Positions 1,088 to 56,321 of a stretch of DNA of 64,000 nt are shown here, piece after piece. The notes under the pieces are model-generated. The model was not told the DNA's origin. It saw nothing but the letters and a program-made list of their open reading frames with translations, and did no database searches. Made by a program: the position numbers and the translations under genes. Origin of the DNA: Nakamurella antarctica. GTDB lineage: Bacteria; Actinomycetota; Actinomycetes; Mycobacteriales; Nakamurellaceae. The stretch is taken from NCBI RefSeq assembly GCF_003860405.1, contig NZ_CP034170.1, positions 62,001-126,000 of the forward strand, in the 5' to 3' direction. The stretch's first letter is position 1. Each line of letters opens with the position of its first letter.

Positions 1088-1150
1088 CGCCGAGCGGTGC
1101 GCTAAAGCGCGCGACGAGCCCGATTTCGCCTCGTAGGGCACCGCTCGGCG
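1088..1150. repeat. 63-bp palindromic intergenic element, copy 1
   Basis: Perfect 13-bp inverted ends (CGCCGAGCGGTGC and GCACCGCTCGGCG) enclose 37 bp that contain an inner ACGAG/CTCGT hairpin. The same ends at exactly the same spacing occur at 20899, 22004 and 29968. A degenerate extra left arm lies near 1055-1066. The element sits between two minus-strand genes and could act as an RNA hairpin, terminator or REP-like element. Confidence 0.85.
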
Positions 1151-19281: not shown

Positions 19282-19790
19282 AAAACCCCAACTCTGATCC
19301 GGTCGCGCGCAACAAGGTTCCGGTCTGGAATCAAGACGTAAAGATGTACGAGGACTACGAGGTGGGGGAGGTCGACCGCTCGATCCGCCGCACCATTTCC
19401 GAGGGCGAGGTGATGATCTTCAGCAGCATGCTCGTCGACCTGCACCCCTACGTCGCCGACGATATCTTTGCCCGCGATGAGGGACTTTTCGGGCGCCGGA
19501 TCGTGCCGGGCGCGCTCGTTTTCGGGTACGGCATGGGGCTGATGGCGCACAACAACATCCACACGTTCAGTTACGGATATGACCGCCTCCGCTTCATCAA
19601 GCCCGTCTTTATCGGCGACACCATCTACACGATGCGCACTTTGTTGCGGAAGGAACCCAAGTACGACGAGATGGGGTTGTTCACCGTTTCCTACGAGGTG
19701 TTTCGCGCCGATGATGAGCAGATCGTGCTCTATTGCGAACATCTGCAGACGGTGAAGTACCGGGACCCGGCAACAGCAAAGGGGCTGTAA
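19278..19790 (+). CDS. MaoC-like hot-dog dehydratase/hydratase 2
   Basis: 170 residues, GTG start overlapping the CoA-transferase stop. The hot-dog elements are [53 protein letters not shown] and [18 protein letters not shown]. The last block is almost the same as in MaoC 1 (YGYDRVRFIRPVHIGDTI), showing close paralogy. The usual D-x-x-x-x-H pair is altered around VDLHPY. The two may form a heteromeric hydratase or act on successive CoA intermediates. Confidence 0.88.
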
Positions 19791-20866
19791 TGATTGATCT
19801 TTTCCGCGAGATTTCCGACTACTGCAGGCTTTTTGTCCCGGAGGAGCACAAACGCCCGATCGCCATCGTCGGGGCGGGTGGCATCGTGGATGGCCAGCAC
19901 CTGGTGGCCTACAAACTGGCCGGCCTCGAGGTGGTGGGCATCACCGATGTGGACCTCGATCGGGCCCGCGACGTTGCTACGCGCCACGGCATCGGCCGCG
20001 TGTACGGCTCGCTCGCCGAACTGCTGGCCGACGACCGAGTGGAGGTAGTCGACATCGCCGTTCCCGTAGAGCAGCAGGCGGCGATCTTCCGGGCAGCTGT
20101 CGCCGCCGGGAAACACATCTTGGCGCAGAAACCATTCACGGTAGATCCAGAAACAGCGCGAGAACTGGCTTCCCTGGCCGCTTCCGCGGGGGTTGTCGCT
20201 GCCGTGAACCAACAGCTGCGCTTCGACGAGGGAATTGCTGCAGCGCATCGGATGGTCGAGCTGGGTTGGCTCGGAACGCTGACCTCTTTCACGCTTTCCG
20301 TCAACGTCTTCACCGACTGGAAGCAGTGGGAGTGGGCCAAGGAGATGCAGCGGCTCGAGGTAATGGTGCACTCGATTCATTACCATGACGTCGTCCGGTG
20401 GTTCCTCGGCGAACCGTCATCGGTGCACGCGGACGGGGGACGGGTTCCGGGTCAATTTCCGATCGGCGAAACTCGCACCACGAGCAGCTACCGTTTTGCA
20501 GGTGGCGCGTCCGCCCTGGTGTTTGCCAACCATATGAACCCGGGCGGGGACGACACCGCGGAGTTCAGAATCGAAGGCACCGGCGGGGCTATCCGCGGCA
20601 CCCTGGGGTTGATGTACGACTACCCGACCGGCCGCCCCGACACCCTGGAAGTGACCAGCTCCGTTGTTGGCACCGACGGGTGGATGCCATACCCCGTTAC
20701 CCAGCGCTGGTTCCCGCACGCTTTTATCGGGACGATGGGCTCGGTGCTGGAAGCGATCGCGACGGGCTCGCCGCCGCGGACCGCGGTCAGTGACAACGTC
20801 AAGACGGTTGAACTGGTGGCGGCGCTGTACCGCTCGATGGAATCCGAGGAAGTGGTGCGGCTCTAG
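19790..20866 (+). CDS. Gfo/Idh/MocA family oxidoreductase 2
   Basis: 358 residues. Rossmann motif IAIVGAGGIVDGQHL near residue 25 (preceded by about 22 extra residues), AQKPFTVD for the E/Q-K-P catalytic Lys motif (Glu replaced by Gln), and MVHSIHYHDVVRWFLGEP for the G/H-x-x-D/H-x-x-H metal or sugar block. The TAATG overlap with MaoC 2 makes it the last gene of the operon. It probably oxidises or reduces a hydroxyl of the sugar substrate or a derivative. It is unrelated in detail to the minus-strand member at 33. Confidence 0.88.
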   Translation: MIDLFREISDYCRLFVPEEHKRPIAIVGAGGIVDGQHLVAYKLAGLEVVGITDVDLDRARDVATRHGIGRVYGSLAELLADDRVEVVDIAVPVEQQAAIFRAAVAAGKHILAQKPFTVDPETARELASLAASAGVVAAVNQQLRFDEGIAAAHRMVELGWLGTLTSFTLSVNVFTDWKQWEWAKEMQRLEVMVHSIHYHDVVRWFLGEPSSVHADGGRVPGQFPIGETRTTSSYRFAGGASALVFANHMNPGGDDTAEFRIEGTGGAIRGTLGLMYDYPTGRPDTLEVTSSVVGTDGWMPYPVTQRWFPHAFIGTMGSVLEAIATGSPPRTAVSDNVKTVELVAALYRSMESEEVVRL

Positions 20867-20898
20867 GGCCCGCCTTTCGCCGAGCGGTGCCCGTTTTC

Positions 20899-20961
20899 CG
20901 CCGAGCGGTGCGTTGTGGCTCGGATTTGGGCGGAATGTCCGTCATAGCGCACCGCTCGGCG
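20899..20961. repeat. 63-bp palindromic intergenic element, copy 2
   Basis: Same 13-bp perfect inverted ends and the same total length as the other three copies. The inner flanks (GTTGTGGC and GTCATAGC) still pair when G-U wobbles are allowed. An extra lone left arm is present at 20878-20890, suggesting a partial second copy. It lies upstream of the nuclease-like gene at 21086, with copy 3 just downstream of it. Confidence 0.88.
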
Positions 20962-21085
20962 TAGGTTCTGACTTCAGCCCCGCCGCAGGCAAACGTCTCC
21001 ACCGAACTTATCCACAAGACCAATTCCATTCACAGATTGCTGGAAGCTGCCCCGCTGCACAGTGGGCGGGGGCGAGGATCCAGCG

Positions 21086-22021
21086 ATGCACCTAGCGATC
21101 TCCGATCCCCAACTCGCACCTCACCGTCCTGCTTCCCGGTTACCTGATGCGCTCATCGCACTGGCTTCGATACAGGGCGGCGCCATCTCGGGGAGTCAAT
21201 TGCGCCAGTTTCTGAGCCCCGGAGACCTCGATCGCTACGCGAGGGCGGGAGCGATCAGCAAGCAATGCCGCAACAGCTACGTCCTAGGTCGCCCGGACCT
21301 GCATGCCGCCTTGGCGGCGGTCGATCAGCGCTGGGGTCGACCCGCAGTAGCTTGCCTTCACACCGCAGCATCCCTGTACGGGTTCGACATCGCCGGTGAC
21401 GGCAGGCTACACATCCTCGGCGACTCCGACCACGCCAGTCAGGTACCTGGGCTGCGAGTACACCGCTTTTCCACGTATCAAGACTTCAGCTGGGTCCGCG
21501 GCCGAGCAGCAACCGGGGCGGCTGAAACTGCAATCCGAATCGCGGCTCAGATGCCAGACAATATGCGCGCTTTGGGAGTTCTCGATGCGGCGCTTCGGTC
21601 CGGAAGCACCTCTGCGGCGGAGCTTCTCCGATTCTGCGGCCCGGCGGGTCTGCGGGGCATCCGCAAAGTTCGTGACGTTGCGCACTTGGCAGATCCGCGT
21701 GCGGAATCACCACCCGAGTCGTGGCTGCGCTACGCATGTTTCGCCGCCGGCCTGCCCGCTCCGACCCCTCAGTTAGTGGTAATCGGGCCCGATGGTCGCC
21801 GATACCGCCTCGACCTGGGTTGGGAGGAATACAAGATCGGATTCGAGTATGACGGGGTTGAGTTCCACACGGGAGCGGCCCTGGCCGTGGATAGACGCCG
21901 TAATAACGTCTTCACGTCATTGGGCTGGACGATGTTCTCTATGACAGGAGTGTCGTTTTGGACCGAACGCGACGCAGTGATGGAGATGATTCGCCGCCAG
22001 ATGCGCCGAGCGGTGCGTTAA
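21086..22021 (+). CDS. AbiEi-like / DUF559 (Vsr-like nuclease fold) protein
   Basis: 311 residues. The N-terminal half (IALASIQGGAISGSQLRQFL, then a Tyr/Asp helix and a CLHTAASLYGF segment) resembles the winged-helix AbiEi-type antitoxin domain. The C-terminal half has the DUF559/Vsr-like core: ESWLRYACFAAGLPAPTPQ, YRLDLGWEEYKIGFEYDGVEFH and a following Asp/Arg-rich helix, comparable with PD-(D/E)xK-type residues. ATG 21086 has GAGGA about 7 bases upstream. No toxin partner gene is adjacent. The last codons (RRAVR and stop) are supplied by the left arm of palindromic element copy 3. Function is unproven; the flanking repeats suggest a selfish or repeat-mobilising unit. Confidence 0.8.
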   Translation: MHLAISDPQLAPHRPASRLPDALIALASIQGGAISGSQLRQFLSPGDLDRYARAGAISKQCRNSYVLGRPDLHAALAAVDQRWGRPAVACLHTAASLYGFDIAGDGRLHILGDSDHASQVPGLRVHRFSTYQDFSWVRGRAATGAAETAIRIAAQMPDNMRALGVLDAALRSGSTSAAELLRFCGPAGLRGIRKVRDVAHLADPRAESPPESWLRYACFAAGLPAPTPQLVVIGPDGRRYRLDLGWEEYKIGFEYDGVEFHTGAALAVDRRRNNVFTSLGWTMFSMTGVSFWTERDAVMEMIRRQMRRAVR

Positions 22022-22066
22022 TGCTGAGAAAACAGCACGTACGGCGTTATATCGCACCGCTCGGCG
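22004..22066. repeat. 63-bp palindromic element, copy 3, overlapping a stop codon
   Basis: Same ends and length as copies 1, 2 and 4. The left arm overlaps the last six codons of the nuclease-like gene. The inner part holds a TGCTG/CAGCA hairpin. It sits between the gene and the convergent LLM oxidoreductase gene and may also serve as a transcription stop. Confidence 0.88.
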
Positions 22067-22109
22067 GGTTTCGATCTGGTGGGTTTCGAGCGGGTGTGCC
22101 CGGGTGTTG

Positions 22110-23144
22110 TCAGTGACCGAGCTCGCGGTTCACCATCGGCATCACTTCGGTGGCGAGCAGCTCGATCGACTTCATCACCAGGTGGTGGGGCACCCCGGAT
22201 AAGTCCATCTGCAGCGCGAGGCGATCCATTTTCAGGTGTCCGTGCTGATAGACGATGCGCTCGGCAATCTCCTCCGGAGAGCCCACAAAAAGTGCGCCGC
22301 GGTGGCCGGTTTGGTCCACATAGCTGGCTTCACTCGGCGGGCTGAAGCGCCGTTCCCTCGCGATCCGGCCCATGGAGTCCATCCAGTACGGGAAGTACGT
22401 GTCTGTAGCCGCCGCAGATTCTTCCGCGACGAAGCCGAACGCGGAAACGGTGACCTTGTCGGCGCCCAAGACGCCCGGACCTTGGGCGTAGGCCTCGTGG
22501 TAGAGATTGACCAGTGGGGCGAAGCGTTCGGGTTGGCCGCCGATGATGGCGTAGTTGATGGGCAAACCGATCAGCCCCGCGCGGGCCGAGGACTCGGGAT
22601 TGCCGCCTGTGGCGATGCTGATCGAGAGATGGCCGCCCACGGGTCGGGGGAGCACCACCTGATTGACGAGCGCTGGTCGGTGGTGACCCGACCACGTGAT
22701 TTCTGGGCGTTCGTCGATCTTGAGCAGCAGTGCGAGCTTCTCTTCGTAGAGCTCGTCGTAGTCCGCCAGTTCGTACCCGAAGAGCGGAAAGCTTTCGATG
22801 AAGGATCCGCGGCCGGCGAGCAGCTCGGCACGTCCGTTGCTGAGCAGATCGATTGTGGCGAACTGCTGGTAGACACGCACCGGGTCTTCGGTACTCAGAA
22901 CGGTGACGGCGCTGCCAAGCTTGATCTTTTTGGTGACGGTTGCCGCTGCTGCCAGCACGGTCGCGGGCGCGGAGATCGAGTACTCGGGGCGGTGGTGCTC
23001 GCCGATTCCGAAGTAGTGCAGCCCAAGCTCGTCGGCAAAGGTGATCCGATCGATGATTTCTTTCAGCCGTTGACCGGGGTCAGTCTTGGCTCCCGTGAGC
23101 GGGTCAGGGTGAATGTCGCCAAAGGTATATACGCCGAATTCCAT
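22110..23144 (-). CDS. LLM-class flavin-dependent oxidoreductase
   Basis: 344 residues, luciferase-like TIM barrel. EFGVYTFGDIHPDP at the N-terminus, YFGIGEHHRPEY (the conserved E-H-H), LGSAVTVLSTEDPVRVYQQFATIDLLSNGRAEL and the C-terminal GSPEEIAERI are diagnostic. It uses FMNH2 or F420; the substrate cannot be named. It is convergent with the nuclease-like gene and is separated from the MFS gene by a region containing a parS-like site. Confidence 0.92.
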   Translation of the reverse strand: MEFGVYTFGDIHPDPLTGAKTDPGQRLKEIIDRITFADELGLHYFGIGEHHRPEYSISAPATVLAAAATVTKKIKLGSAVTVLSTEDPVRVYQQFATIDLLSNGRAELLAGRGSFIESFPLFGYELADYDELYEEKLALLLKIDERPEITWSGHHRPALVNQVVLPRPVGGHLSISIATGGNPESSARAGLIGLPINYAIIGGQPERFAPLVNLYHEAYAQGPGVLGADKVTVSAFGFVAEESAAATDTYFPYWMDSMGRIARERRFSPPSEASYVDQTGHRGALFVGSPEEIAERIVYQHGHLKMDRLALQMDLSGVPHHLVMKSIELLATEVMPMVNRELGH

Positions 23145-23235
23145 GTACGTTCATACAACTAGCTGAAGGGTTTTATTCCCGACGCCGTTGACCTGCGCAG
23201 ATAGGGCAGCAGACCAACTTCAGCGGGCCGTTGGC

Positions 23236-23249
23236 GTTTCACGTGAAAC
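23236..23249. promoter_or_regulatory. Candidate parS site (ParB-binding)
   Basis: GTTTCACGTGAAAC is a perfect 14-bp palindrome identical to the parS sequence known from Streptomyces and very close to that of Bacillus. It lies in the 335-bp spacer between the LLM gene and the MFS gene; no parAB genes are in the window. Chromosomal parS sites usually cluster near the replication origin, so this may place the region in the origin-proximal part. The rest of the spacer holds the MFS promoter region and no gene. Confidence 0.75.
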
Positions 23250-23479
23250 AACGGCGAACGGTCGAAAGGGGACGCGCTCATGTAGGGGGTAAAAATTCTT
23301 CGATGACGGCAATCCCCGAGAGGGGAGGTCTACGAATACCTGCGGAAAATCCTGATGCCGTTGTCGGGGCCTTCCACTAGATTGAACCAGGGCCGCGACG
23401 TATCCGCATCCAGCCCTGAAATCGGCAGCTCGCAACTGCGCGCCGATGGTCACCACGAGTTTTGAGGAGTTAGTTCTCT

Positions 23480-25003
23480 ATGCCGAAATCAACCTCCACG
23501 GTCGAGCCGAAAGGTTCGTTCGTCGCTGGTGGCGCCGCACCCGACCCCAAGCGATGGATAGCGCTCATCGTCATTGGGGTGGCGCAATTGATGGTGGTGC
23601 TGGACGCGACCATCACAAACATCGCGATGCCGCGAGCAGCCGCCGAATTGGGTATTGCGCAGGCGGACCTGCAGTGGATCATCACCGCCTACGCGCTGCC
23701 TTTTGGCTCGCTGCTGCTGCTGGGTGGTCGGATCGCTGATTATGTAGGTCGCAAGAAGGTAATGATCATCGCCCTTAGCGGCTTTGCGTTGGCATCGGCT
23801 CTGGGCGGCGCTGCCAGCCAGGCCTGGATGCTTCTCGCTGCCCGCGGGCTGCAGGGTGTCTTCGCAGCCGCCCTCGCGCCCGCCGCACTGTCCATGCTGA
23901 CGGTGACGTTCACGGATGCAAAGGAACGGGCGAAGGCGTTCGCGGTCTTTGGCGCCATTGCCGGTGGCGGAGCTGCCGTCGGCCTCCTGCTCGGCGGCGT
24001 GCTGACCGAGTACGCCAATTGGCGCTGGTGCCTACTCGTCAACATTCCTATTGCTATTGGTGCGATGTTCGCTGCCATCGCCATCCTTCGCGAGTCGAAA
24101 ACTGAAAGCACAGGGCATTACGACGTCCCGGGCGCAGTCTTGGCGACCCTGGGTCTCGCCGGACTGGTGTGGGGATTCACCCGACCCGAGAAGGTGGGCT
24201 GGGCTTCGCTCGACACTTGGTCGTGGATCGGCGGCGCGGTCATCGTCCTTGCGCTCTTCGTCGTGTGGGAAAGCCGCAGCACCAACCCGCTCCTGCCGAT
24301 TCGAATACTCGCGAATCGAAACCGCGCAGCGGCATACCTGGTTGGCATGCTGGTGGGAGCTGGCATGTTCTCGCTGTTCCTGTTCCTGACGATCTATTTG
24401 CAAATCGTCCTCCAGTACACCCCGGTCAAGGCTGGCTTTGCCTTCCTGCCGTTCAGTGCCGGAATTGTGTTGGGCGCCGGCGTCGGCTCCCAACTCGTTT
24501 TGAAGGTCGGCCCCCGCATCGTCGTCACAACCGGCAGCACTTTGGGAGCCATCGCGCTTTTCTGGATGTCCTCGATCGCCCCCGATACGACCTACGTCGG
24601 AACGATTTTGCCAGCGATGGTGGTGATGGCCTTCGGTGTGGGATTCATCTTTATGGCTACCACCAATATTGCGCTGGTGGGCATCAGCAATAACGACGCG
24701 GGAGTGGCCAGCGCGGTAGTCAACACCACCCAGCAGGTGGGTGGCTCACTCGGTATTGCCCTGCTGAGCACCATCTCCTCCACCACGTTCCTGCGGTATC
24801 TCACAGATCGCGGAGTGGCCCCGATCGCCGATCCGTATTCAGCCGCGATTGATCCGGTCCAGGTCGCCGCCACCCTCCACGGTTACGGCGTTGCCTTCAA
24901 GGTTGCTGCGGGTCTTTTCGCGTTGGCGGCGGTGATTGCCGTGACGCTGATTTCGGCGAAAAAGTCCGACCTACCCACTGGCGCCGCGGTAGCAATGCAC
25001 TAA
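23480..25003 (+). CDS. DHA2-family MFS drug/H+ antiporter (14-TM, EmrB/QacA-like)
   Basis: 507 residues with about 14 hydrophobic segments. Motif A is visible after TM2 (GGRIADYVGRKKVM), motif D1 in TM1 (VVLDATITNIAMPRAAAELG) and motif C-like sequence in TM5 (GGAAVGLLLGGVLTEYANWRW). ATG 23480 is preceded by GAGGAG at 10 bases. This family exports drugs or other cationic or lipophilic compounds. A strong convergent hairpin terminator follows the gene. Confidence 0.93.
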   Translation: MPKSTSTVEPKGSFVAGGAAPDPKRWIALIVIGVAQLMVVLDATITNIAMPRAAAELGIAQADLQWIITAYALPFGSLLLLGGRIADYVGRKKVMIIALSGFALASALGGAASQAWMLLAARGLQGVFAAALAPAALSMLTVTFTDAKERAKAFAVFGAIAGGGAAVGLLLGGVLTEYANWRWCLLVNIPIAIGAMFAAIAILRESKTESTGHYDVPGAVLATLGLAGLVWGFTRPEKVGWASLDTWSWIGGAVIVLALFVVWESRSTNPLLPIRILANRNRAAAYLVGMLVGAGMFSLFLFLTIYLQIVLQYTPVKAGFAFLPFSAGIVLGAGVGSQLVLKVGPRIVVTTGSTLGAIALFWMSSIAPDTTYVGTILPAMVVMAFGVGFIFMATTNIALVGISNNDAGVASAVVNTTQQVGGSLGIALLSTISSTTFLRYLTDRGVAPIADPYSAAIDPVQVAATLHGYGVAFKVAAGLFALAAVIAVTLISAKKSDLPTGAAVAMH

Positions 25004-25032
25004 GCGCACGATCGCTCAGCGGAGTTGGACTG

Positions 25033-25071
25033 AAGGCGTCGCGGACATCCCACGGATGTTAGCGGCGCCTT
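25033..25071. terminator. Bidirectional hairpin terminator between MFS and zur
   Basis: An 18-base arm starting AAGGCGTCGCGG pairs with an arm ending GCGGCGCCTT around a CAC loop, with one or two internal mismatches and a short T/C tail. It lies between convergent genes. Confidence 0.7.
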
Positions 25072-25074
25072 TCG

Positions 25075-25476
25075 TCATGTGGTGCCTGAACACGCTGCGC
25101 AGAGGCCGAATAGCTCCATGTGATGGTCAACGTCAGTGAAGCCGAAATCTTGAGCCACCGTCCGCGCCCACTTTTCTACGTGCGGTGCATCTATCTCCTG
25201 CGTGTTTCCGCAGGAGCGGCAGACCAGATGATGGTGGTGGAGTGGCTGCGCGCAGCGACGGTAGAGGATCTCGCCAGATTCGTTGCGCACGGAATCCACG
25301 TCGCCCGCAGCCGCCATTTCCTGCAGCGCCCGATAGACCGTTGCCAGGCCGACAGTGGAGCCACCCGAGCGCAGCTGCGAGTGCAAATCCTGTGCGGAGG
25401 CAAATTCCCCGGTCTCGCTGAGGAGGTCGCTAATAGCCGCGCGCTGACTAGTGTTGCGGCGCTGCACTGCAACCAT
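25075..25476 (-). CDS. zur: Fur-family metal regulator, Zur-like
   Basis: 133 residues. Winged helix: TSQRAAISDLLSETGEFASAQ and TVGLATVYRALQEMAAAGDVD. The metal region has the H-H-H-H-L-V-C-R-S-C block (structural Cys pair), DVDHHMELFGLCAAC with a second C-x-x-C pair, and acidic and His sensor ligands between them. The length and the LVCRSCG...CAAC spacing match Zur/FurB of actinobacteria. Divergent from an NRAMP transporter; a Fur-like dyad lies at 25497. It could control that transporter, in which case a Mn- or Fe-responsive role must also be considered. Confidence 0.87.
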   Translation of the reverse strand: MVAVQRRNTSQRAAISDLLSETGEFASAQDLHSQLRSGGSTVGLATVYRALQEMAAAGDVDSVRNESGEILYRRCAQPLHHHHLVCRSCGNTQEIDAPHVEKWARTVAQDFGFTDVDHHMELFGLCAACSGTT

Positions 25477-25496
25477 GCTGATCTCCCCACATCTGG

Positions 25497-25517
25497 GAGC
25501 GATAGTGATTCTCGCTC
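25497..25517. promoter_or_regulatory. Fur/Zur-type candidate operator
   Basis: A 21-bp dyad with GAGCGA and TCGCTC arms encloses GATAGTGATTCTC, which resembles half of a Fur-type box. It sits 21-41 bp upstream of the zur start, in the divergent spacer to the NRAMP gene, consistent with autoregulation. Confidence 0.4.
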
Positions 25518-25670
25518 TCGTTGAGGATAGCGGCTGGAGAGGTTGAGATCCGGGTCTGCATCCGCGCGCAGCTCAGGCTTGTGATGGGTAGGGCAATCGG
25601 ACCTGGTGTGGCAAAGCCGACTAGAGTAAGTTTCGGAGATCCGAACTTAATTGTTGGAATGGGCGAAGTC

Positions 25671-25700
25671 GAGATTGGCGCAGTGGAGATTGGCGCAGTG
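25671..25700. repeat. 15-bp direct tandem repeat, two perfect copies
   Basis: GAGATTGGCGCAGTG occurs twice back to back, ending one base before the ATG at 25702 of the NRAMP gene. If translation starts further upstream it would add a pentapeptide repeat to the N-terminus; otherwise it is leader sequence. Confidence 0.85.
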
Positions 25701-25701
25701 G

Positions 25702-27023
25702 ATGGGTAGGCGAGTGAGACCAGAGGGGGCAGTGGAGACGGAAGCGCCGCAGCCACCTCGCAGCAAGCTGCGCCGCACGCTTCCGCTCCTCGGCCCGGCG
25801 TTCGTCGCTGCGGTCGCCTACGTGGACCCCGGCAACTTCGCGACGAACTTTTCGGGCGGCGCCAACTACGGCTACCTGCTGTTGTGGGTGATCGTGGCAG
25901 CCAACCTCATGGCCATGCTGATTCAGATGCTCACTGCCAAACTAGGGGTGGCAACTGGCCGCGACCTGGCAACATTATGCAGAGAACGCTTTCGGCGGCG
26001 CGTGGTCTGGGGGCTGTGGCTGCAGGCCGAAGGTGTCGCCATCGCCACCGATATCGCCGAAATTGTTGGTGGGGCCGTGGCGCTCAATCTCCTCTTCGGG
26101 GTGCCGCTCCCCGTCGGTGGTGTGATCACCGCAGGCGTCGCCTTCGTCCTGCTCGCCGCGCAAACCCGAGGCTTTCGACCTTTTGAGGTGGTGATCACCG
26201 GCCTGCTGCTCATCATCGCGCTGGGCTTCGGATACATGTTGGTGCAATCAGGCTTTGACCCCGGTAAGGCGGTGACGGGGCTTGTTCCGTCATTTGCCGA
26301 CACGGACAGCGTGCTCCTTGCGACAGGCATCCTCGGCGCGACCGTGATGCCGCACGTCATCTATGTTCACTCGGCGCTGACACCACAACGCTATGACCTT
26401 CCAGATGATGGACGGCTGGCCGAAGGCAGCGGCGAAAAAGTGGCTCCGGGGCAGCAACTACCCCCTCAATGCGTAAAAAGCTCCTCACAGCACAGCGGAT
26501 CGACGTACTCATGGCGATGGGCGCCGCCGGCATCGTGAACGCCGCAATGCTGGCGATTGCCGCGCAGCTGTTCTTCAAAACAGACACGAAATCGGAATCA
26601 CTCGAAGAAGTGCATGCCGGTCTCGGGCTGGTACTAGGCAGCGGCGCGGCAGTCGCTTTTGCCGTCGCACTGTTGGCCTCGGGTCTGGCTGCTTCGGCGG
26701 TCGGCACGTATGCCGGTCAGGTGATCATGGCGGGCTTTCTGCGCAAACGGATCCCGTTAACGCTGCGTCGCTTGCTGACCGCGATCCCTGCGGTGCTTCT
26801 CCTTGCTAGCGGCGCGGACCCGACGGCGGCTTTGGTGTGGTCCCAGGTCGTCCTATGTTTCGGTATTCCATTTGCGCTAATTCCGTTAGTGGTTTTCACT
26901 TCGCAGCCGAGCCTGATGGGCCCGTACGTGAACCGCCGCATGACGACTATCCTCGCCTCCGCAGTGGCCGTACTTATCGTCGTGCTGAACGCATATCTTC
27001 TATTCAGCTTGTTGTGGGGATAA
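25702..27023 (+). pseudogene. mntH: NRAMP-family divalent metal transporter (MntH-like), frameshifted
   Basis: The first part encodes NRAMP TM1 to TM6: VDPGNFATNFSGGANYGY carries the DPGN metal motif, and GATVMPHVIYVHSAL carries the TM6 M-P-H motif. After about residue 235 the frame is lost. The C-terminal part (RIDVLMAMGAAGIVNAAMLAIA onward, TM7 to TM11) continues in the -1 frame to 27023. Adding one base between about 26405 and 26465, where A5 (26435-26439) and C5 (26460-26464) runs occur, gives about 440 residues, the normal NRAMP length. The TM7-11 part shows no further decay. It is divergent from zur. Start choice (ATG 25702, or GTG at 25714) is uncertain. Confidence 0.85.
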
Positions 27024-27130
27024 CCAGGTGCGGGTCTGGGCGATAGGCCTTGAGGTGTCGGAGCGCCCCCAACCTCTAGCGCTGCGGCGGAAAACAGATC
27101 TCCTCGGCCACCGTCGCCTACGCTCAACAG

Positions 27131-28618
27131 GTGAGTACCGCTTCTGACAATCCAGCAATGGGGCCCGACGCCCCCGCGAGCGAACAGCCGCTAGCGGCCC
27201 CGCAGACGCAAGATGCCGTGGCTGACCCTGCTGTGGCTGACCCTGCTGTGGCTGAACCTGCTGTGGCCGAACCTGCTGTGGCCGAACCTGCTGTGGCTGA
27301 TCCTGCTGTGGCTGATCCTGCTGTGGCCGAACCTGTGTCAGTGAAGCGCCGCAGAACCCGCGATCGCAGTCTGGCAGCGTTATTAGCCGCCGCGGTCCTC
27401 GTCATCTCCGGTGCGATCTGGCAGCAGAGCGATGCCAGAGCCACCAGCGCCGAAGTCGGTGCGGAGTTCCCTGCGCCTCCCGGGATGGCGCAAGCCCCGA
27501 CCACACTGAAGCCCCTATGGCAGATGTCTGCTGGTGCGTCGGTGCTGGTGTCGCCATACGGGACCGTGGTGGAAGCAGATAAGCACACCGTCACGGGGTA
27601 CGACGCGTTGACTGGCGACAAGCGCTGGACCTACAGCAGGTCGAACCTACCGATCTGCGCGATTGGCAGCGGCGACCTGAAGTCGGTTGACTGGGCGGCG
27701 GGCGGCGCAGTCCGCGGCATCTTGGTGACGTACGAGAAGAATGGCCAGTGCAGCGAAGTTACTTTGCTGAACGCCGCAACCGGCGATCGTCGCTACCAGC
27801 GCACCTCCGACGTGCCAGCCGATACAAAACTCATTTTTGGTGGTTCCTACGCTGGTCTTTTTTCCCCGGATCTGGTGGACCTCTGGCGCTACGACCTGGT
27901 TCGTACGGCCAACTACGGCAACTTGCCGACCCCGCGCAGCCCCAACACCCGTCATCTCGGATGCACCTTCACCGACGGCTCCATTGGTGGCAATCAGTTC
28001 GCGACTATTGAACACTGTGAGGCGACGCCGGAAACCGCGAATGTGGTGCTGAACTACGCGGACCCGGGGTCGACCGACGAGGGTAAGAAGCAAAAGTGGG
28101 AGTACGACAGGTTTACCGCTCGCGCCACCATCGCGCTGGGTGCAAAGAATGCGAAACTGTTGTCCGTTACCAATGACGAAGTGGCAGTTTTGGTCAGTAC
28201 GCCCGCGCCTGCGGTGGTGGTGTACAACACCGCGGGCAAGGAATTAAGCCGGACGATGGTGCTGCTATCAGCGGCAGATATCGCAGCTGCCGCTGCGGCT
28301 GGGCCGGGCACCAACGTTGCGGTGTCGGACGGTGCGCGATACGCCTTGATCGGCAGCACGCTCTTGGCTGTGAGCGGCGACAAGCTTGACAGCGTATGGA
28401 CTATGCCCAACGTGGTGGGTCTACCGGTGGCGGTGGGTCCGGATCTCCTGGTGCCGACGGCTGATGGCATTGTCGTGGCCGGAAAGTTCAATGGCCAGAT
28501 CGAGCGCACGCTCGCAGTAGACCGAGGTGGCTACGTGGGCCCGGTGCAGCTTGGCGTGAGTGGATCGGTGCTGGTGGAACATCGGGGCGATATGGTTGTG
28601 GCACTGAAAAGTGAGTGA
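27131..28618 (+). CDS. Membrane-anchored PQQ-like beta-propeller protein
   Basis: 495 residues, GTG start. Residues 1-75 are a cytoplasmic tail containing eight A-V-A-D/E-P pentapeptides; RRRTRDRS then precedes a single membrane helix (LAALLAAAVLVISGAIW). The extracellular remainder has propeller-like blades: VVEADKHTVTGYDALTGDKRWTYSR, CSEVTLLNAATGDRRYQR, PAVVVYNTAGKELSR and GIVVAGKFNGQIERTLAV. Similar actinobacterial proteins are annotated only as Rv3212-like or PQQ-binding-like; no enzyme activity is assigned. It overlaps the next gene by 8 bp, suggesting coupling. Confidence 0.82.
   Translation: MSTASDNPAMGPDAPASEQPLAAPQTQDAVADPAVADPAVAEPAVAEPAVAEPAVADPAVADPAVAEPVSVKRRRTRDRSLAALLAAAVLVISGAIWQQSDARATSAEVGAEFPAPPGMAQAPTTLKPLWQMSAGASVLVSPYGTVVEADKHTVTGYDALTGDKRWTYSRSNLPICAIGSGDLKSVDWAAGGAVRGILVTYEKNGQCSEVTLLNAATGDRRYQRTSDVPADTKLIFGGSYAGLFSPDLVDLWRYDLVRTANYGNLPTPRSPNTRHLGCTFTDGSIGGNQFATIEHCEATPETANVVLNYADPGSTDEGKKQKWEYDRFTARATIALGAKNAKLLSVTNDEVAVLVSTPAPAVVVYNTAGKELSRTMVLLSAADIAAAAAAGPGTNVAVSDGARYALIGSTLLAVSGDKLDSVWTMPNVVGLPVAVGPDLLVPTADGIVVAGKFNGQIERTLAVDRGGYVGPVQLGVSGSVLVEHRGDMVVALKSE
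27215..27334 (+). repeat. 15-bp tandem repeat, eight copies
   Basis: Unit GCTGTGGCTGACCCT with silent and D/E changes; encodes (A-V-A-D/E-P)x8 in the cytoplasmic tail of the propeller protein. The proline-rich acidic repeat probably forms an extended spacer. It is the longest of the window's 15-bp minisatellites. Confidence 0.95.
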
Positions 28619-29915
28619 CATCAACGCCTCTGCCCTTTCTTTCGATCATGCTGCGGCGTTGGCAGAATTGCTGGAGGAGCCGATAAGCGTTGGCTTCAAG
28701 AGCTTTCCGACCGTGGGCACGATCGGTGAGGTGGGTGCCCAGGGGTGGCGCGCACTTGATGGCGACCTGATGTTGCCGGTGGCAGTGCTCAGCGAGTCCG
28801 CTGTGGAGCACAACCTGCAGCGGATGGCGCAGTACTGCCGCGAGAACGGTGTTGACCTGGCGCCGCATGGCAAAACCACTATGTCGCCGCAGTTGATGGT
28901 GCGCCAGTTTTCGGCAGGTGCGTGGGCGGTCACCGTCGCGACCACGGCGCAGGCCCGGGTATTTCATGCTTTCGGTGCACGCCGAATCGTCATCGCTAGC
29001 CAGGTCGTGGCGCGCGGCGACCTGCAGTGGCTTGCCCAGAGTCTTGACGGGGATGCGGGTCTGGAAATCCTGGTATTGGTCGATTCGGTCGCTGGAGTTG
29101 CGGCTACCTGTAAAGGCTTGTGGGAGGCAGGTTTTGCCGGCCGGTTACCGGTGCTCCTCGAGCTTGGCTATGACGGCGGTCGCGCTGGCTGCCGCGACAA
29201 GGTAACGGCTCTCGAAGTCGCCTCCGCAGTAATGGCCGCAAAGTGCCTGGTGCTGAGAGGTTTTGAGGGTTTTGAGGGTTTGATGCCGGGCGCCGACTAC
29301 GCAGCCCAGCAAGCCGGGGTCGACGGATATTTGAACTTTGTGAAAGATGTGGTCGACGAAACTCTCGAACGAGCATTGGTGGAAGCGGGCAGCGAGATTC
29401 TTCTGACCTTTGGTGGAAGCGCTTACTTCGACAGGGTTGTCGCTGCATTCCCTGGCCGAGAACGCGGTGGGTTTTCGGTTCGCGTAGTGCTGCGCAGCGG
29501 GTGCTACCTCACCCACGATGATGGAATGTACGCCCGCACTTCTCCCCTGGCAGCCGGGGCTGACCCTGACCCGCTGTATTCAGCGTTGCATGTGTGGTCG
29601 GCTGTACTGGCAAAACCTGAGCCTGGCCTGGCAATCGCCGGGTTCGGGAAACGCGACGCCTCCTTCGATGCGGGCTGGCCCATTCCGCTGTTGCGGCGGC
29701 GCGAGGGTCAGATGCAGAACCTGAACGACGTTGCTGTGACCGGAATGAACGACCAGCACGCCTATCTCGCCCTTGGCGCACACTCTGACGTAGAGGTAGG
29801 GGATCTGATCGGCTGCGGCATCTCGCACCCCTGCACCACGTTCGACAAGTGGCCGCTGATCGCGATGGTGGATGAGGACTATCGCGTCACCGGCGCAGTG
29901 CGGACCTTCTTCTGA
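28611..29915 (+). CDS. D-threonine aldolase / D-serine dehydratase-like PLP enzyme
   Basis: 434 residues, fold type III PLP enzyme. The alanine-racemase-like N-terminal barrel holds the PLP Lys in DLAPHGKTTMSPQL. GRLPVLLELGYDGGRAGCR follows the same core. The C-terminal domain ends with GCGISHPCTTFDKWPLIAMVDEDY, whose H and C are the divalent-metal ligands of the DSD/DTA family. It likely cleaves or dehydrates a D-hydroxy amino acid. The GTG start overlaps the propeller gene by 8 bp. An inserted GFEGFEG duplication (9-bp direct repeat) is a minor oddity. Confidence 0.88.
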   Translation: MSDINASALSFDHAAALAELLEEPISVGFKSFPTVGTIGEVGAQGWRALDGDLMLPVAVLSESAVEHNLQRMAQYCRENGVDLAPHGKTTMSPQLMVRQFSAGAWAVTVATTAQARVFHAFGARRIVIASQVVARGDLQWLAQSLDGDAGLEILVLVDSVAGVAATCKGLWEAGFAGRLPVLLELGYDGGRAGCRDKVTALEVASAVMAAKCLVLRGFEGFEGLMPGADYAAQQAGVDGYLNFVKDVVDETLERALVEAGSEILLTFGGSAYFDRVVAAFPGRERGGFSVRVVLRSGCYLTHDDGMYARTSPLAAGADPDPLYSALHVWSAVLAKPEPGLAIAGFGKRDASFDAGWPIPLLRRREGQMQNLNDVAVTGMNDQHAYLALGAHSDVEVGDLIGCGISHPCTTFDKWPLIAMVDEDYRVTGAVRTFF

Positions 29916-29967
29916 GTGGCCGGGACGGCTGGCTTTCGCGACCGGTGGTGCTGGTCATGGGTTTGTT

Positions 29968-30030
29968 CGCCGAGCGGTGCGCTACGCCCGCGAATTGTCC
30001 AAATTCCAGGGCATAGCGCACCGCTCGGCG
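29968..30030. repeat. 63-bp palindromic intergenic element, copy 4
   Basis: 13-bp perfect ends as in copies 1-3; here the stem extends inward (GCTACGCCC against GGGCATAGC) to 22 bp with one wobble. Located between the convergent aldolase-like and AKR genes. Confidence 0.88.
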
Positions 30031-30086
30031 AAATAGGCGTGGCAACGGGGCAAATTTCGGCTCGTGGTGAGTGAGCCGCTTAGTGG

Positions 30087-30920
30087 CTACGGCACGTAGT
30101 TAAACGTGTCCGGGTCCGGGCCCGTTCGTTGACCGCGGTCCAGGCTAGAGATCATCGACATCTCAGAATCGTCGAGTTCAAAATCGAAAATGGCCGTGTT
30201 TTCTTGGATCCGAGCGGGGGTCGCAGACTTCGGGAACACGATGTTGCCCAACTGGATCTGCCAGCGCAGCACAACCTGAGCGGCAGACTTGTTGTGCGCC
30301 AGGGCAACTGTCACGATCGTCGGGTCGTCGAGAACGAGGCCCTTGGCGATCGGCGACCACGCTTGCGTGGCGATACCGTGCTCGTCGTTGTAGGCATGGA
30401 GTTCGGATTGCACGAGGTACGGGTGTAGTTCGATCTGGTTCACCGCAGGCGGGATGGTCGTCTCGGCCAGCAGTCGTCCGATGTGGTGCGCCTGGAAGTT
30501 GGAGACGCCGATGGACCGGGCCCGCCCACTCTGATAAATCTCCTCCATGGCTCGCCAGGTGTCGACGAAGTTGCCCACCGCGGGCAGTGGCCAGTGGATC
30601 AGGAACAGGTCAACCCGCTCGAGGCCCAGGTCCTTTAAGGACGTATCGAAAGATGCGAGTGCATCGTCGCGTGAGTGCTTGTTGTTGTTCAGCTTGGTGG
30701 TGACGAACACGTCTGTGGGATCCAGAGCGGACTGCGCAATGGCTTGCCCAACCTCCTTCTCGTTCCCGTACATCTGCGCGGTGTCGATATGTCGGTAGCC
30801 CGCGTCAAACGCGCGCTGCACGGCCTCGACCGTATCCGCGGGCTTGATCTGGAAGGTGCCGAATCCCAGTTGCGGGATATGGACACCGTTGTTGAGGTTG
30901 ATGTTCGGGATTTCCGTCAT
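30087..30920 (-). CDS. Aldo/keto reductase, 2,5-diketo-D-gluconate reductase-like
   Basis: 277 residues. NLNNGVHIPQLGFGTFQI is the DkgA-type N-terminus. The catalytic tetrad is in RHIDTAQMYGNE (D, Y), FVTTKLNN (K) and FLIHWPLP (H); cofactor segments are SIGVSNF and FPKSATPARIQEN. ATG 30920 has GAGAGG upstream. The neighbouring gluconate permease and kinase support a role in ketogluconate reduction. Other carbonyl substrates are possible. Confidence 0.9.
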   Translation of the reverse strand: MTEIPNINLNNGVHIPQLGFGTFQIKPADTVEAVQRAFDAGYRHIDTAQMYGNEKEVGQAIAQSALDPTDVFVTTKLNNNKHSRDDALASFDTSLKDLGLERVDLFLIHWPLPAVGNFVDTWRAMEEIYQSGRARSIGVSNFQAHHIGRLLAETTIPPAVNQIELHPYLVQSELHAYNDEHGIATQAWSPIAKGLVLDDPTIVTVALAHNKSAAQVVLRWQIQLGNIVFPKSATPARIQENTAIFDFELDDSEMSMISSLDRGQRTGPDPDTFNYVP

Positions 30921-31146
30921 TCGGAGTGCCTCTCGTGTCGTCGTGTCTTTTACTTGGTACCCGATGCTCCTCGTTCTCAACGCACTCGAGCAAACCGGAT
31001 GCCGGTGAAGGGACCCGTATCCAGATTGCCAGTTTGGGTCTGGGGAGGGACGGGTAACACCGGAACAGCTGGCCTGCAGGCCCGGGGAGTCGGCCGGCGA
31101 GCCGTCGGCGGTTGAAAAAACAGCCGACGTCGGCGCTCAGTGAGAC

Positions 31147-33355: not shown

Positions 33356-34444
33356 ATGACTGAACTGATCGAAGTTTCGGGCTTGGTGAAACGGTTCAAG
33401 GGCAACACAGCCTTGGCGGGTATTGACTTCTCGGTTCCCGAGGGCACGGTGCTGGGGCTGCTCGGCCCCAACGGTGCGGGCAAGACTACTGCGGTCCGGA
33501 TCCTGGCGACGCTGCTCCCGTCGGACGAGGGCACTGCAACGGTTGCCGGTTATGACGTTGCTACCCAGGCTCGGCAGGTTCGCTCGATCATCGGCTTGAC
33601 GGGGCAATACGCGGCCGTGGATGAGTACCTCACGGGCTTCGAGAACTTGGAAATGGTGGGACGTCTTTACCACCTGGGAAAGAAGGAATCCCGGACGCGG
33701 GCGGCGGAGCTGCTCGAAAGGTTCGATTTGGTGGAAGCGGGAGGTCGGCCGGCGAAGACATATTCCGGCGGTATGCGCCGCAGGCTCGATATTGCCGCCT
33801 CCCTCATCGCCCGGCCGAGGGTTCTCTTCCTTGACGAACCCACTACCGGCCTCGATCCGCGCAGTCGGCTCGGGATGTGGGAGTTCATCGAAGGCCTCGT
33901 GCAGGAAGGGACAACGATCCTCCTGACCACGCAGTACCTCGAGGAGGCCGACCGTCTTGCGAACTCCATGGTGGTAATCAACCATGGCTTGGTCATCGCC
34001 CGTGGCACGTCTGACGAGTTGAAAGCGCAGGTGGGTGGTCAGCGTCTGGAGTTCACCGTCGCCCGTGATGGCCAACTTGCGATCCTCGCCGAGCGGCTCG
34101 CCGGAATCGCCGCTGAGCCGGCGCGGCTGGACGAGTCGAATCGCCGCGCGGTGATCCCCATCAATGGTGGGTCCGAGGTATTGGCTCAGGCGCTGAGCCT
34201 GTTGGAGGGGTCGGGTGTCGAATTGGTCGACGTCGGCCTGCGCCGGCCGGACCTTGACGATGTGTTCCTCACCTTGACGGGACATTCCGCTGAAGACGCG
34301 GAAGCGCCAGCGGCAACGGAAGGCGCAGCAACGGAAGGCGCAGCAACGGAAGGCGCAGCAACGGAAGGCGCAGCAACCGAAGGCGCAGCAACGAAAGGCA
34401 CAGCAACGAAAGGCGCAGCACACCGAGGGGGAACCGGCAAATGA
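33356..34444 (+). CDS. ABC exporter ATP-binding protein (DrrA-like) with repeat tail
   Basis: 362 residues. Walker A GPNGAGKTT, Q-loop LTGQYAAVDEYLTG, signature YSGGMRRRLDIAASLIARP, Walker B VLFLDEPTTGLDPRS and the H-loop replaced by Gln (LLTTQYLEEA), as in DrrA relatives. The C-terminal DrrA-type domain ends near DDVFLTLTGHSAED; beyond it a tail of seven A-A-T-E/K-G pentapeptides has been added. No Shine-Dalgarno is seen. It pairs with the permease at 34441 by a 4-bp overlap. Probable drug or lipid export. Confidence 0.93.
   Translation: MTELIEVSGLVKRFKGNTALAGIDFSVPEGTVLGLLGPNGAGKTTAVRILATLLPSDEGTATVAGYDVATQARQVRSIIGLTGQYAAVDEYLTGFENLEMVGRLYHLGKKESRTRAAELLERFDLVEAGGRPAKTYSGGMRRRLDIAASLIARPRVLFLDEPTTGLDPRSRLGMWEFIEGLVQEGTTILLTTQYLEEADRLANSMVVINHGLVIARGTSDELKAQVGGQRLEFTVARDGQLAILAERLAGIAAEPARLDESNRRAVIPINGGSEVLAQALSLLEGSGVELVDVGLRRPDLDDVFLTLTGHSAEDAEAPAATEGAATEGAATEGAATEGAATEGAATKGTATKGAAHRGGTGK
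34310..34414 (+). repeat. 15-bp tandem repeat, seven copies
   Basis: Unit GCAGCAACGGAAGGC encodes A-A-T-E-G, then A-A-T-K-G and T-A-T-K-G in the C-terminal tail of the ABC ATPase. Three internal copies are identical, so the array may still vary in number. Confidence 0.95.
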
Positions 34445-41440: not shown

Positions 41441-43260
41441 TCCCCCCGATCGCAGCTCGGCTCGGCCCTCATCACGATGGCTCGTCGCTCTACGTCGGTG
41501 ACTCCACGCCGCGGCTCGGAGATCGCGTCCCCGTCAGAGTGCGGGTACCGTCCGGGTCCGGGGTGGACGCCGTTCGGATCCGAGCGATCCGGGACGCCGA
41601 GCCGACATTGGTGCAGGCCAAGAGGGACGGCGGTGACGATCACGAGGACTGGTTCACCGCAGACGTCGAAGTTCACAACCCGGACACCCGCTACCGGATT
41701 CAGCTCGACCGCGGCTTGCAGGGGTACTCCTGGTTGAACGGAACAGGGGAGCACTACCGGGACATCCCCGACGCGCACGATTTCCGGCTCACCACCCATG
41801 ATCCCGGCCCCGACTGGGCACGTGACGCCGTGGTCTACCAAGTTTTCCCGGACCGTTTCGCGCGCAGCGGTGCGTCCCGAGAGTTGCCTGGTTGGGCTGT
41901 ACCGGCCGAGTGGGATGATGCCGTCATCCACCAGGGTTCGCAGACCCCGTTGCAGTTCTTCGGCGGCGACCTTGACGGCATCCGTAACAAACTCAGCCAC
42001 CTCAAGAGTGTGGGTGTCACGGCGCTCTATCTCACGCCGATCTTCCCGGGTGGGTCCAACCACCGCTACAACGCGTCCAGCTTCGCGGAAGTAGACCCGC
42101 TGCTAGGGGGCGACGCCGCCCTCGCCCGGCTTGCCCGCGCGTGCCATGAAAGCGGCCTACACATCGTTGGCGACCTCACCACGAACCACTCCGGCGACGA
42201 TCACCCGTGGTTCGAGTTGGCCAAGCAGGGACCCGACGCACTGGAGCGCAGCTTCTACTACATGGACAAAAACGGGGACTACATCAGCTGGCTCGGTGTG
42301 CCCAGCCTGCCAAAATTCGACCTCGCCTCACAGGAGTTGCGGGACAGGATGTTCGGCACCGGTGACTCGGTGGTGTCACGGTGGTTGCGGCCGCCATTCG
42401 ACCTCGACGGCTGGCGGATAGACGTCGCCAACATGACGGGCCGCCAGGGTGAATACGACCACGGCAGAGAGGTCGCCAGGCTAATTCGCCGCACCCTCGA
42501 CGAAGTTCGCCCCGATTCGGTACTGATCGCCGAATACACCAGCGACTTCACGGCGGACCTTGACGGCGCCGGGTGGCAGGGCTCTATGAACTATGCAGGC
42601 TTCGCGGGCCCGGTGTGGTCGTGGCTGCAATCGGCGGCACACGAGAAATCTGTGCAGGGCAATCCGAATCGCACCGCTCGGCGCAGCGGCCAGAGCACCG
42701 TCGCCACCATGCGCGAGTTCGCTGCGGCCGTTCCGTGGAAAGTCGCTGCCCGGCACTGGAATCTGGCTAGCTCCCACGACACCGCACGGATCCGTACCAT
42801 CGCCGGCACGCCCGAAATGGTGCGTGTTGCCGCCGGCCTACTTTTCACCTACCTCGGCACCCCGATGGTGTTCGCGGGCGATGAAATTGGGCTTGAAGGA
42901 ACCAACGGGGAAGACTCCCGCCGCACGATGCCCTGGGATCGCCCGGAGGACTGGGATCAGGAAACGCTCGCCGTGTACCGCGATTTGATCGCGGTTCGGC
43001 ACGCACATCCGGCCCTGCGCAGGGGCGGCCTGCGGTGGGTGGTGCAGACCGATGACGCAATTGGCTACCTGCGAGAGACCGCTGACGAGCGAATTTTGGT
43101 GGTGGTGGCCCGCTCTCGCTGGCAAGGCGCACTGCTGCCCGGTGGTCTTGTATACCAGTCGGCCGAGACGCTCTACGGCGAGGTGAGCCTCGTTGTTGAC
43201 GGCTCAGGGGTTCTCATCCCGGGAGAGGGCCCAGGGGTTGGAATCTGGCGGCTGACCTGA
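41437..43260 (+). CDS. GH13 alpha-amylase family enzyme, neopullulanase/maltogenic-type
   Basis: 607 residues; TTG start overlapping the malK TGA. An N-terminal beta-sandwich (about 1-115) precedes the barrel: [46 protein letters not shown] (nucleophile Asp), [12 protein letters not shown] (acid/base Glu) and [11 protein letters not shown] (third Asp). The domain order resembles GH13 cyclomaltodextrinase/neopullulanase-like enzymes. No signal peptide, so it acts on imported maltodextrins. The TTG start is inferred from the overlap. Confidence 0.9.
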
Positions 43261-53102: not shown

Positions 53103-53377
53103 CGGCTGTTTGATGTATCGCAGACGGGGGAGTGCGTGGCATAGGCGCGGACACGGGTTGGGTTACAACATCGACCTGCGGCGATGGCATGGCTTGAATG
53201 TTGTAACGGTAACGATCCAGTGCTTGCCAGTGTCCGCATGCCGTGTACGAATGGTCAAAAGTGGGGTCATGCGGACACGGGTTGTGAGACAACAATGGGC
53301 TGTCTGTTACGGCGTTGGGCAGGCCAGTAGTCCGAGCGGGGCTTGACCCCGGAAACCGAAGTGGCATGCTCTTGGGC
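53103..53377. repeat. IS-terminus-like fragment
   Basis: Contains ACGGTAACGATCCAGTGCTTG (53206-53226), shared in near-identical form with the reverse complement at 61425-61450, and a GTCATGCGGACACGGG block shared with 62513-62530. No gene is seen. Confidence 0.5.
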
Positions 53378-53740
53378 ATGATCAGACTTAGCTGGCCGCC
53401 ACCAACGCTTGCCCCAGGCGAGACAGTCATGCTGCGCGTGCCAGCGAATTTTGTCCACCGCGGGATTGCGCGAGGGGGCAATCTGTTTCTGACCAACGGT
53501 CGCGTCGTGTTCCAGCCGAATAGTGTCGAGTCTTGGTTTGGCTTGAAAGCCCACTCATGGAGCTGCGACTCGGTCATGTCGGTGGGAGTTGCCAGACGGG
53601 GCGCAAACCTCTTTGGGGGCGCCGTCAGGTGTAGATTGCGGCTTGTCATGGCAGACGGCACCGTACTGCGCTTCGTAGTCCCGAAGGTCGATAAGGTCGC
53701 GGGCCAGGTAGCTTCCATGCTGCGTTTAGCAGGCGGGTAA
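53378..53740 (+). CDS. GRAM/PH-like domain protein
   Basis: 120 residues. LAPGETVMLRVPANFVHRGIARGGNLFLTNGRVVFQPN, WFGLKAHSWSCDSVMSVGVARRGANLFGGAVRCRLRLVMADGTVLRFVVPK reproduces the beta-sheet order of bacterial GRAM/PH domains. No signal peptide. Start ATG 53378. Function unknown. Confidence 0.7.
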   Translation: MIRLSWPPPTLAPGETVMLRVPANFVHRGIARGGNLFLTNGRVVFQPNSVESWFGLKAHSWSCDSVMSVGVARRGANLFGGAVRCRLRLVMADGTVLRFVVPKVDKVAGQVASMLRLAGG

Positions 53741-54229
53741 CTATGTGCTGCAGTCTCGCACGATCAGCCCGCTAGTTTCGACCATCGACGTGTGCAGGTC
53801 GCGTTCCTGAGCTGAATGGCTGCGGTGCGCAGGGTTGATGATCACGCCCCGAACAGTGGATGAGACATTGTTGGCTGACCGGGTGATCTGCGAGTTGAGA
53901 ACTTCTCTGTAACGCCAGCGCTCCGAATATGCTGGATGTTCGTCTTAAGTTGTGATTTGTTCGGCGAGTGCTTCGGCTCCGACTCAGTGCTGCACTTTCG
54001 GGCCTGTTCCCTGGGCATCTCGCCTGGTCAAACTATCTCAGGTACTTCGGCCCGTTTTTATAGAAGGCAATCCAAAAACTAGCAAGTAGCGACGGAGAAC
54101 TGAAGAGCTGTGGCGGAGATTTGTTCGGCCGTAGGTGGTTAATCAACGACCTCTTAGCAAGTGCTGCACAGAGGGGTTCGGTCATCCAATGCAAGGGGTC
54201 GGGTCGCGGGCTGACAGGGGGATAGCCAC
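53741..54229. other. Spacer without recognisable gene
   Basis: 489 bp with several stops in all frames, no strong hairpin and no match to other repeats in the window. Confidence 0.4.
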
Positions 54230-54472
54230 TTGCGGCGGTGGCTTCGTAACGTTGTACCTGCGCACCCGCGGGCTCGGGTGGTGTACCTGGTTGGCCTCGT
54301 TGCGTTTGTGCTGGGCCTGGTCAGTTCGATCATGGGTAACTGGCTTGTGTTCAGCTTTTTGGTAGCTGTCTCGATGCTTCTGGTTCTGACTGCGCGAAAT
54401 ATTGATCAGCACCAGAGGCTGAAGCAGAGGATGGGATCTAATCCTGTCTTGGGCACTGGAGCAGACGAGTAA
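54230..54472 (+). CDS. Small two-TM membrane protein
   Basis: 80 residues, TTG start preceded by AGGGGGA at 7 bases. Two hydrophobic helices (VVYLVGLVAFVLGLVSSIMG and LVFSFLVAVSMLLVLT). Its C-terminal sequence (RLKQRMGSNPVL) recurs in decayed form in the duplicated blocks at about 59810 and 63630, so it is a member of a local small-gene family. Confidence 0.6.
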   Translation: MRRWLRNVVPAHPRARVVYLVGLVAFVLGLVSSIMGNWLVFSFLVAVSMLLVLTARNIDQHQRLKQRMGSNPVLGTGADE

Positions 54473-54474
54473 GC

Positions 54475-54570
54475 GTGAAGAAGCCGGCCGCGTTGATAGT
54501 TGGTTTGGCCGCTGCGGCGGGTGTTGCGGTGGCTGCGGGTCCGCGAGAGCATGTCAAGTTGTTTGTGTAA
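54475..54570 (+). pseudogene. Very short ORF disrupted at its 3' end by the IS256 element
   Basis: GTG start followed by KKPAALIVGLAAAAG, a single hydrophobic helix. In the pre-insertion sequence, rebuilt by joining the two target copies, the frame ends with a TGA right after ggt-ccg-cga (24 codons). The element inserted at that point and extends the frame to 31 codons. Whether it is a real peptide gene is unclear. Confidence 0.35.
54539..54546 (+). repeat. Target-site duplication, left copy
   Basis: GTCCGCGA, identical to 56008-56015 on the other side of the IS256 element. Confidence 0.85.
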
Positions 54571-56007: not shown

Positions 56008-56015
56008 GTCCGCGA
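56008..56015 (+). repeat. Target-site duplication, right copy
   Basis: GTCCGCGA, identical to 54539-54546. Confidence 0.85.
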
Positions 56016-56051
56016 TGATGAACCAGGTTTATCAACATGAAGAACGAACCG

Positions 56052-56288: not shown

Positions 56289-56321
56289 CTTATTCTTGGA
56301 GGTAGTTATGGGCGCCTTCTG

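Follow-up and report, generated by a model that had tools for sequence, protein, structure and literature searches.

An AbiEi-Vsr-type nuclease gene bracketed by its own palindrome in Nakamurella antarctica looks like part of a REP/RAYT counterpart with a different enzyme

A nuclease-like gene in Nakamurella antarctica lies between two copies of a palindrome that also stands alone elsewhere in the genome, an arrangement that raises the question whether the enzyme recognises the hairpin and drives its spread or maintenance, as the original prediction had proposed by analogy with REP elements and their RAYT transposase. To our knowledge, the RAYT transposase is the only enzyme known for REPs, and it has yet to be explained how short palindromes that lack their own transposase come to spread. 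Here we analysed a stretch of 64,000 nt (the window, positions 62,001 to 126,000 of contig NZ_CP034170.1) together with its genome (G000, a single contig of 3.38 Mb) and homologous loci in other actinobacteria.

The gene and palindromes of the window

The gene encodes a 311-aa protein and spans an ORF at 21086..22021 on the plus strand (alternative start GTG at 21062). It is bracketed by a palindrome at 20899..20961 upstream and another at 22004..22066 downstream, the latter holding the gene's final codons (RRAVR*) and stop TAA (22019-22021), so that the placement of the gene between copies 2 and 3, with copy 3 supplying the stop region, was correctly described. Two further palindromes stand alone, one at 1088..1150 near the 3' ends of adjoining ORFs and one at 29968..30030 between convergent ORFs (28611-29915, plus strand; 30087-30980, minus strand). 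All four, listed without strand, are exactly 63 bp long and have the same 13-bp ends (CGCCGAGCGGTGC...GCACCGCTCGGCG), in agreement with the identical ends and constant length seen originally. Folded as DNA, these copies score 4.8 to 10 SD better than their own shuffles (z -5.4 for the upstream and -5.6 for the downstream bracket copy, -4.8 and -10 for the solos at 1088 and 29968, respectively). An extra half copy consisting of one arm (20879..20890, plus strand) lies just 5' of the upstream bracket palindrome, which explains why the feature was first set to start at 20878, and a single arm GCACCGCTCGGC without a partner arm (42671..42682, minus strand) is either a degenerate copy or chance. 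No Rfam family matched within window positions 20000-31000.

At the genome level, we found 30 occurrences of the 12-mer end in the 3.38 Mb and two of the reversed-sequence control, so the window palindromes are not a product of chance. We counted 16 elements in total, two bracketing and 14 solo, 13 of the 16 being exactly 63 bp long. Both solo sites named at the outset are present, but the element is not rare, with 14 solos rather than two genome-wide. Another copy, at G000:C1:61925-61987, stops 13 bp short of the window. Of the 14 solos, three are no more than 25 kb away from the gene (P 0.001), a clustering that is not significant at 200 kb, and we treat local hopping around the gene as a lead only. 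Repeats of other kinds are also found in the window: positions 53200-63963 contain dispersed repeats of 80-300 bp, both direct and inverted, that fall into several families with common motifs (e.g., GTGTCCGCATGAC), which surround a Mutator-family transposase gene (54590-55957, minus strand) and among which no short-range palindromes were seen, and three 15-bp tandem repeats (2130-2250, 27199-27348 and 34295-34435) probably encode 5-residue repeats.

The initial assignment of the enzyme as an AbiEi/DUF559, Vsr-like nuclease is borne out by profiles and fold matches. The AlphaFold model of the window protein (pLDDT 88.8) has two parts, and the domain layout comprises an AbiEi-fold DNA-binding module at about residues 18-202 and a C-terminal Vsr/EDxHD-type nuclease at about residues 206-311. 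Residues 18-202 adopt the fold of S. agalactiae AbiEi, a wHTH plus a C-terminal domain (6y8q_A; Foldseek E 1e-5, Z 9.8), and align with M. tuberculosis Rv2827c (1zel; Z 7.0), and relatives of the protein match AbiEi_4 and the PADLOC AbiEi models (PADLOC AbiEi E 6e-6 for the homologue L036). For residues 206-311, fold matches were obtained to I-Bth0305I (3r3p; Z 11.4), a Neisseria endonuclease-like protein (Z 11.7) and Vsr (1cw0; Z 10), while Pfam MTES_1575 matches the C-terminal third with E 1e-7, under Pfam's curated cut-off, and DUF559 matches weakly. Searches of Pfam, NCBIfam, PADLOC and folds returned AbiEi and Vsr-type nuclease only, with no HUH/Y1 transposase domain; a RAYT or other HUH transposase was rejected as the enzyme, there being no match in any library. 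Among 111 homologues, the acids E211, D243 and E254 are retained in 110, 111 and 109 proteins, respectively, and this near-invariance suggests that the nuclease is probably active, although the EDxHD motif does not keep its histidine throughout (at H261, 87 homologues have His and 21 Tyr; at D269, 89 have Asp and 21 Glu).

The nearest named relatives of the window gene are from Nakamurella. From sequence reading, the flanking ORFs at 19733-20866 (oxidoreductase) and 22110-23144 (LLM-class oxidoreductase) look metabolic, and no AbiEii (DUF1814) toxin partner is found among the neighbouring ORFs. The locus of the gene is kept between related species (close pairs), and homologue searches gave no match in phages and only three in plasmids, so the gene does not look mobile.

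Pairing of the gene family with private palindromes

The gene family is multi-copy, with a match in 53 of the 61 genomes of the order and up to 12 per genome, and several of the first 30 homologues were already bracketed by matching palindrome pairs of other sequence. A further 80 actinobacterial homologue loci yielded 23 with a matching-palindrome bracket, whereas none of 282 control ORFs from that DNA had one (Fisher P about 5e-17); a few of the 80 belong to close relatives or had already been in the first set, and not all are independent. With a second palindrome finder, 24 of the 80 loci and 2 of 1060 random placements were scored as bracketed (Fisher P about 2e-27). The palindromes are thus enriched beside the gene family, and flanking is found at homologues elsewhere, the lack of which the original prediction had named as speaking against it. 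The two-sided bracket test is passed by only about 30% of homologue loci. Single unpaired hairpins on at least one side are less telling, being present at 51 of the 80 target loci and at 53 of 193 controls, so the matching pair is the real signature; its two copies are often in direct and in some cases in inverted orientation. Overall, the pairing of gene family and palindrome across actinobacteria is well supported. A bracketed homologue also lies on a 6-kb contig of Stenotrophomonas maltophilia P13 (L120), labelled as a gammaproteobacterium, which may reflect contamination or transfer.

Three palindrome families were tested genome-wide, and they are amplified only in genomes whose own gene they bracket. 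Counted as arms, so that elements number about half, GCCGAGCGGTGCG totals 17 in G000, 60 in G003 and 37 in G010, the three genomes in which it brackets the gene, against 0-12 in the remaining 58 of the order; the Actinomyces palindrome reaches 35 and 21 in its two genomes and a third palindrome, TCTGGATGCAGACTGC, 157 and 10 in its two, each with 0 in 20 others. Palindromes equally common without the gene, the other outcome named in advance as adverse, were accordingly not observed for any of the three families. Per genome, palindrome copies range from about 4 to about 80.

Moreover, the palindromes differ between lineages and between paralogues of one genome. A second, distant paralogue in G000 (25% identity) is bracketed by CTTCGTGCGATCGGTTT, of which more copies exist elsewhere in the genome, with three exact solo copies within 105 kb of its gene. 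The paralogues L031 and L032, both in G000, have different palindromes, and palindromes also differ between the paralogues of G047 and G022, about a dozen in each genome. Protein similarity and palindrome similarity are correlated (Mantel rho 0.16, P 0.006), the mean matched arm being 15 nt among the closest proteins and dropping to a background of about 4 nt, and at three Cellulomonas loci the flanks are about 86% identical, the gene only 72-73%, and the palindromes different. The palindrome therefore changes along with the protein. Many, not all, families have the outer end CGCCGAG followed by a variable stretch, with CCGAG within the first 12 nt in 9 of 27 pairs. Scans for CGCCGAG-N-CTCGGCG in 61 genomes and for CGCCGAGGTCGNCC in 22 were uninformative, as high-GC coding sequence often contains such strings.

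Shape, position and turnover of the solo elements

A set of 54 elements shares a 64-66-bp consensus (CCGCCGAGCGGTGCGAAATTGCGG...CGCACCGCTCGGCGG) with an asymmetric conserved centre, and the arms are offset by 42 nt in nearly all copies of G003 and G010. Neither a GTAG nor a CGTC tag is present in the consensus of the 54 elements, and a target-site duplication of at least 3 bp was found at none of them. The solos mostly lie just 3' of stop codons (median about 16 nt); by rough ORF calling, 21 are between convergent genes, 16 between tandem genes and two between divergent genes, and 12 were scored inside an ORF.

More than half of the 31 elements of G003 are also present at the orthologous place in G010, and five (L197, L230, L231, L202 and L188) are absent there, which indicates that copies have been gained or lost. 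Several candidate G003 sites were inspected in G010 without finding a clean empty site or a precise insertion point; as the intergenic bases also differ at the absent sites, insertion, deletion and gene conversion are indistinguishable. The pair L077/L078 was rejected as a recent transposition, the two contigs carrying almost the same region.

Tandem arrays of half-palindrome units of about 32 bp were observed beside elements or genes at G000:C1:2727846-2728034 (L021-L025), L077 and L349. Those of L077 (4121-4461 and 5579-5789), one on either side of the gene, point in opposite directions, and that of L349 (635-855) consists of alternating palindromes. The unit length fits a half-site of about 32 bp. 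Additionally, comparison of L099 (4434-5529) with L102 (4443-5558) shows an inversion of the bracketed gene between conserved flanks, with its breakpoints at the palindromes.

A proposed copying model, its alternatives and known systems

The gene-palindrome pairing, the exclusive amplification, the co-divergence, the conserved catalytic acids and the gain or loss of copies argue for a gene-plus-repeat system that would work like REP/RAYT, with a hydrolytic AbiEi-Vsr nuclease copying the palindrome by break repair, a reading to which we give a probability of roughly 55%. In such a system, the AbiEi-like module would recognise the arms of the cognate palindrome, the protein probably acting as a dimer whose subunits each take a half of about 32 bp, and the Vsr/EDxHD nuclease domain would nick or cut at or near the palindrome. 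Break repair or replication would then copy the palindrome to new intergenic sites, mostly just 3' of stop codons, and the gene itself would stay at its locus and be inherited with the host. A dimer of the fusion protein on a palindrome of about 63 bp would fit both the binding of AbiEi proteins to inverted repeats (PMC7319586) and the dimerisation of I-Bth0305I on a target of nearly 60 bp (PMC3943268). We infer binding, cutting and spread of the palindrome by the protein from association, co-divergence and domain content; neither a target duplication nor a transesterase domain was found, which counts against the copying step. Whether actinobacteria hold a whole class of this kind, in which an AbiEi-guided Vsr/EDxHD nuclease copies a private palindrome by break-and-repair, specificity co-evolves and several independent pairs coexist per genome, is a broader proposition that we rate at slightly below even odds.

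The palindromes might instead be operators or terminators, with the AbiEi-like module autoregulating its own gene, the solos serving as regulon sites or bidirectional terminators, and the nuclease activity being incidental. AbiEi proteins do autoregulate through inverted-repeat binding (PMC7319586), and the solos are strong hairpins, many of them directly following stops in convergent intergenic regions (21 convergent against 16 tandem and 2 divergent). However, we consider this rather unlikely, given that the copies flank the gene on both sides and rarely stand at promoters of other genes, that full length and asymmetric centre are kept across dozens of copies, that the catalytic acids are near-invariant, and that paralogues have different palindromes at high copy number. 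It is likewise unlikely that a homing-type gene invaded a pre-existing solo palindrome, repair leaving a copy on each side, and that the palindromes spread by other means. The match of the nuclease domain to the homing endonuclease I-Bth0305I would suit this history, as would the often direct orientation of the bracketing copies and the resemblance of one gene with many solos to one occupied and many empty targets; yet the restriction of amplification to genomes that carry the cognate gene would call for a further, unseen driver, genomes with an amplified palindrome and no gene were repeatedly not found, and the gene keeps its locus in related species, with none in phages and only three in plasmids.

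A defence or toxin-like nuclease that is titrated, guided or restrained by the genomic palindromes would be in line with the AbiEi fold and with weak matches to large Vsr-domain defence proteins, but it appears improbable: no toxin partner lies beside the gene, the chromosomes contain multiple scattered copies of the gene with private palindromes, and the number of palindromes in a genome may be anything from about 4 to about 80. Finally, palindromes could simply be common near any gene in high-GC genomes, as the single strong hairpins on at least one side of 53 of 193 control genes would suggest; such coincidence is refuted for practical purposes by the matching pairs at 0 of 282 control ORFs and 2 of 1060 random placements and by the exclusive, family-specific amplification. 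The copying of the palindrome by the AbiEi-Vsr nuclease thus stays our preferred reading. An unrelated enzyme class here shows the same genomic signature as REP/RAYT, in a gene family with several to a dozen members in each of many actinobacterial genomes, and the broader class, if true, would be the first such repeat system known to do without a transposase. In addition, the poorly understood AbiEi/DUF559 proteins would gain a testable role, the matched protein-target pairs would offer a built-in set for studies of DNA recognition, and many intergenic palindromes of high-GC genomes could be explained.

Among known systems, classical DDE-transposon MITEs differ from these elements, which have a target-site duplication in 0 of 54 cases. 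The C-terminal domain matches the MTES_1575 REase domain (Pfam PF18741) and DUF559 in sequence, whereas the founding MTES_1575 protein is very large and multi-domain (HEPN/helicase/Vsr; PMC3710099) and members of the family described here have about 300 aa, an AbiEi module and private palindromes. With the AbiEi antitoxins (S. agalactiae AbiEi, Rv2827c) the protein shares the fold of its N-terminal two thirds, and known relatives bind inverted repeats, but here the module is fused to a nuclease, no AbiEii toxin gene adjoins, and the palindromes are found genome-wide. I-Bth0305I (EDxHD, Vsr-like) has the same catalytic fold, and its dimer target of nearly 60 bp resembles the palindrome length; unlike that enzyme, ours is associated with no intron, intein or phage host gene, contains an AbiEi-like DNA-binding part and has a seemingly fixed gene with many palindromic sites per genome. 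No report on AbiEi with DUF559, or on MTES_1575/DUF559 with palindromic repeats, was found among the openly accessible journal papers searched, within which this enzyme class is not known in a gene-plus-amplified-palindrome role. As in REP/REPIN-RAYT systems (TnpA_REP; REPtrons), an enzyme gene is bracketed by a palindrome that is amplified as intergenic solos, often at gene 3' ends, the repeat families are species-specific and the gene seems fixed in place. REPs are defined as GTAG- or CGTC-tagged palindromes (PMC3733652), and REPtrons use an HUH/Y1 transposase of the IS200/IS605 type, whereas here single palindromes of 49-88 bp without a constant GTAG or CGTC tag occur with an AbiEi + Vsr/EDxHD nuclease in Actinobacteria, several gene-palindrome pairs per genome. 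Lacking the HUH/Y1 enzyme and the GTAG tag, this is not a RAYT system; the REP/RAYT-like arrangement with another enzyme and the gene-palindrome link are nevertheless strongly supported, and the system looks like a previously undescribed counterpart of REP/RAYT built on a different kind of enzyme.
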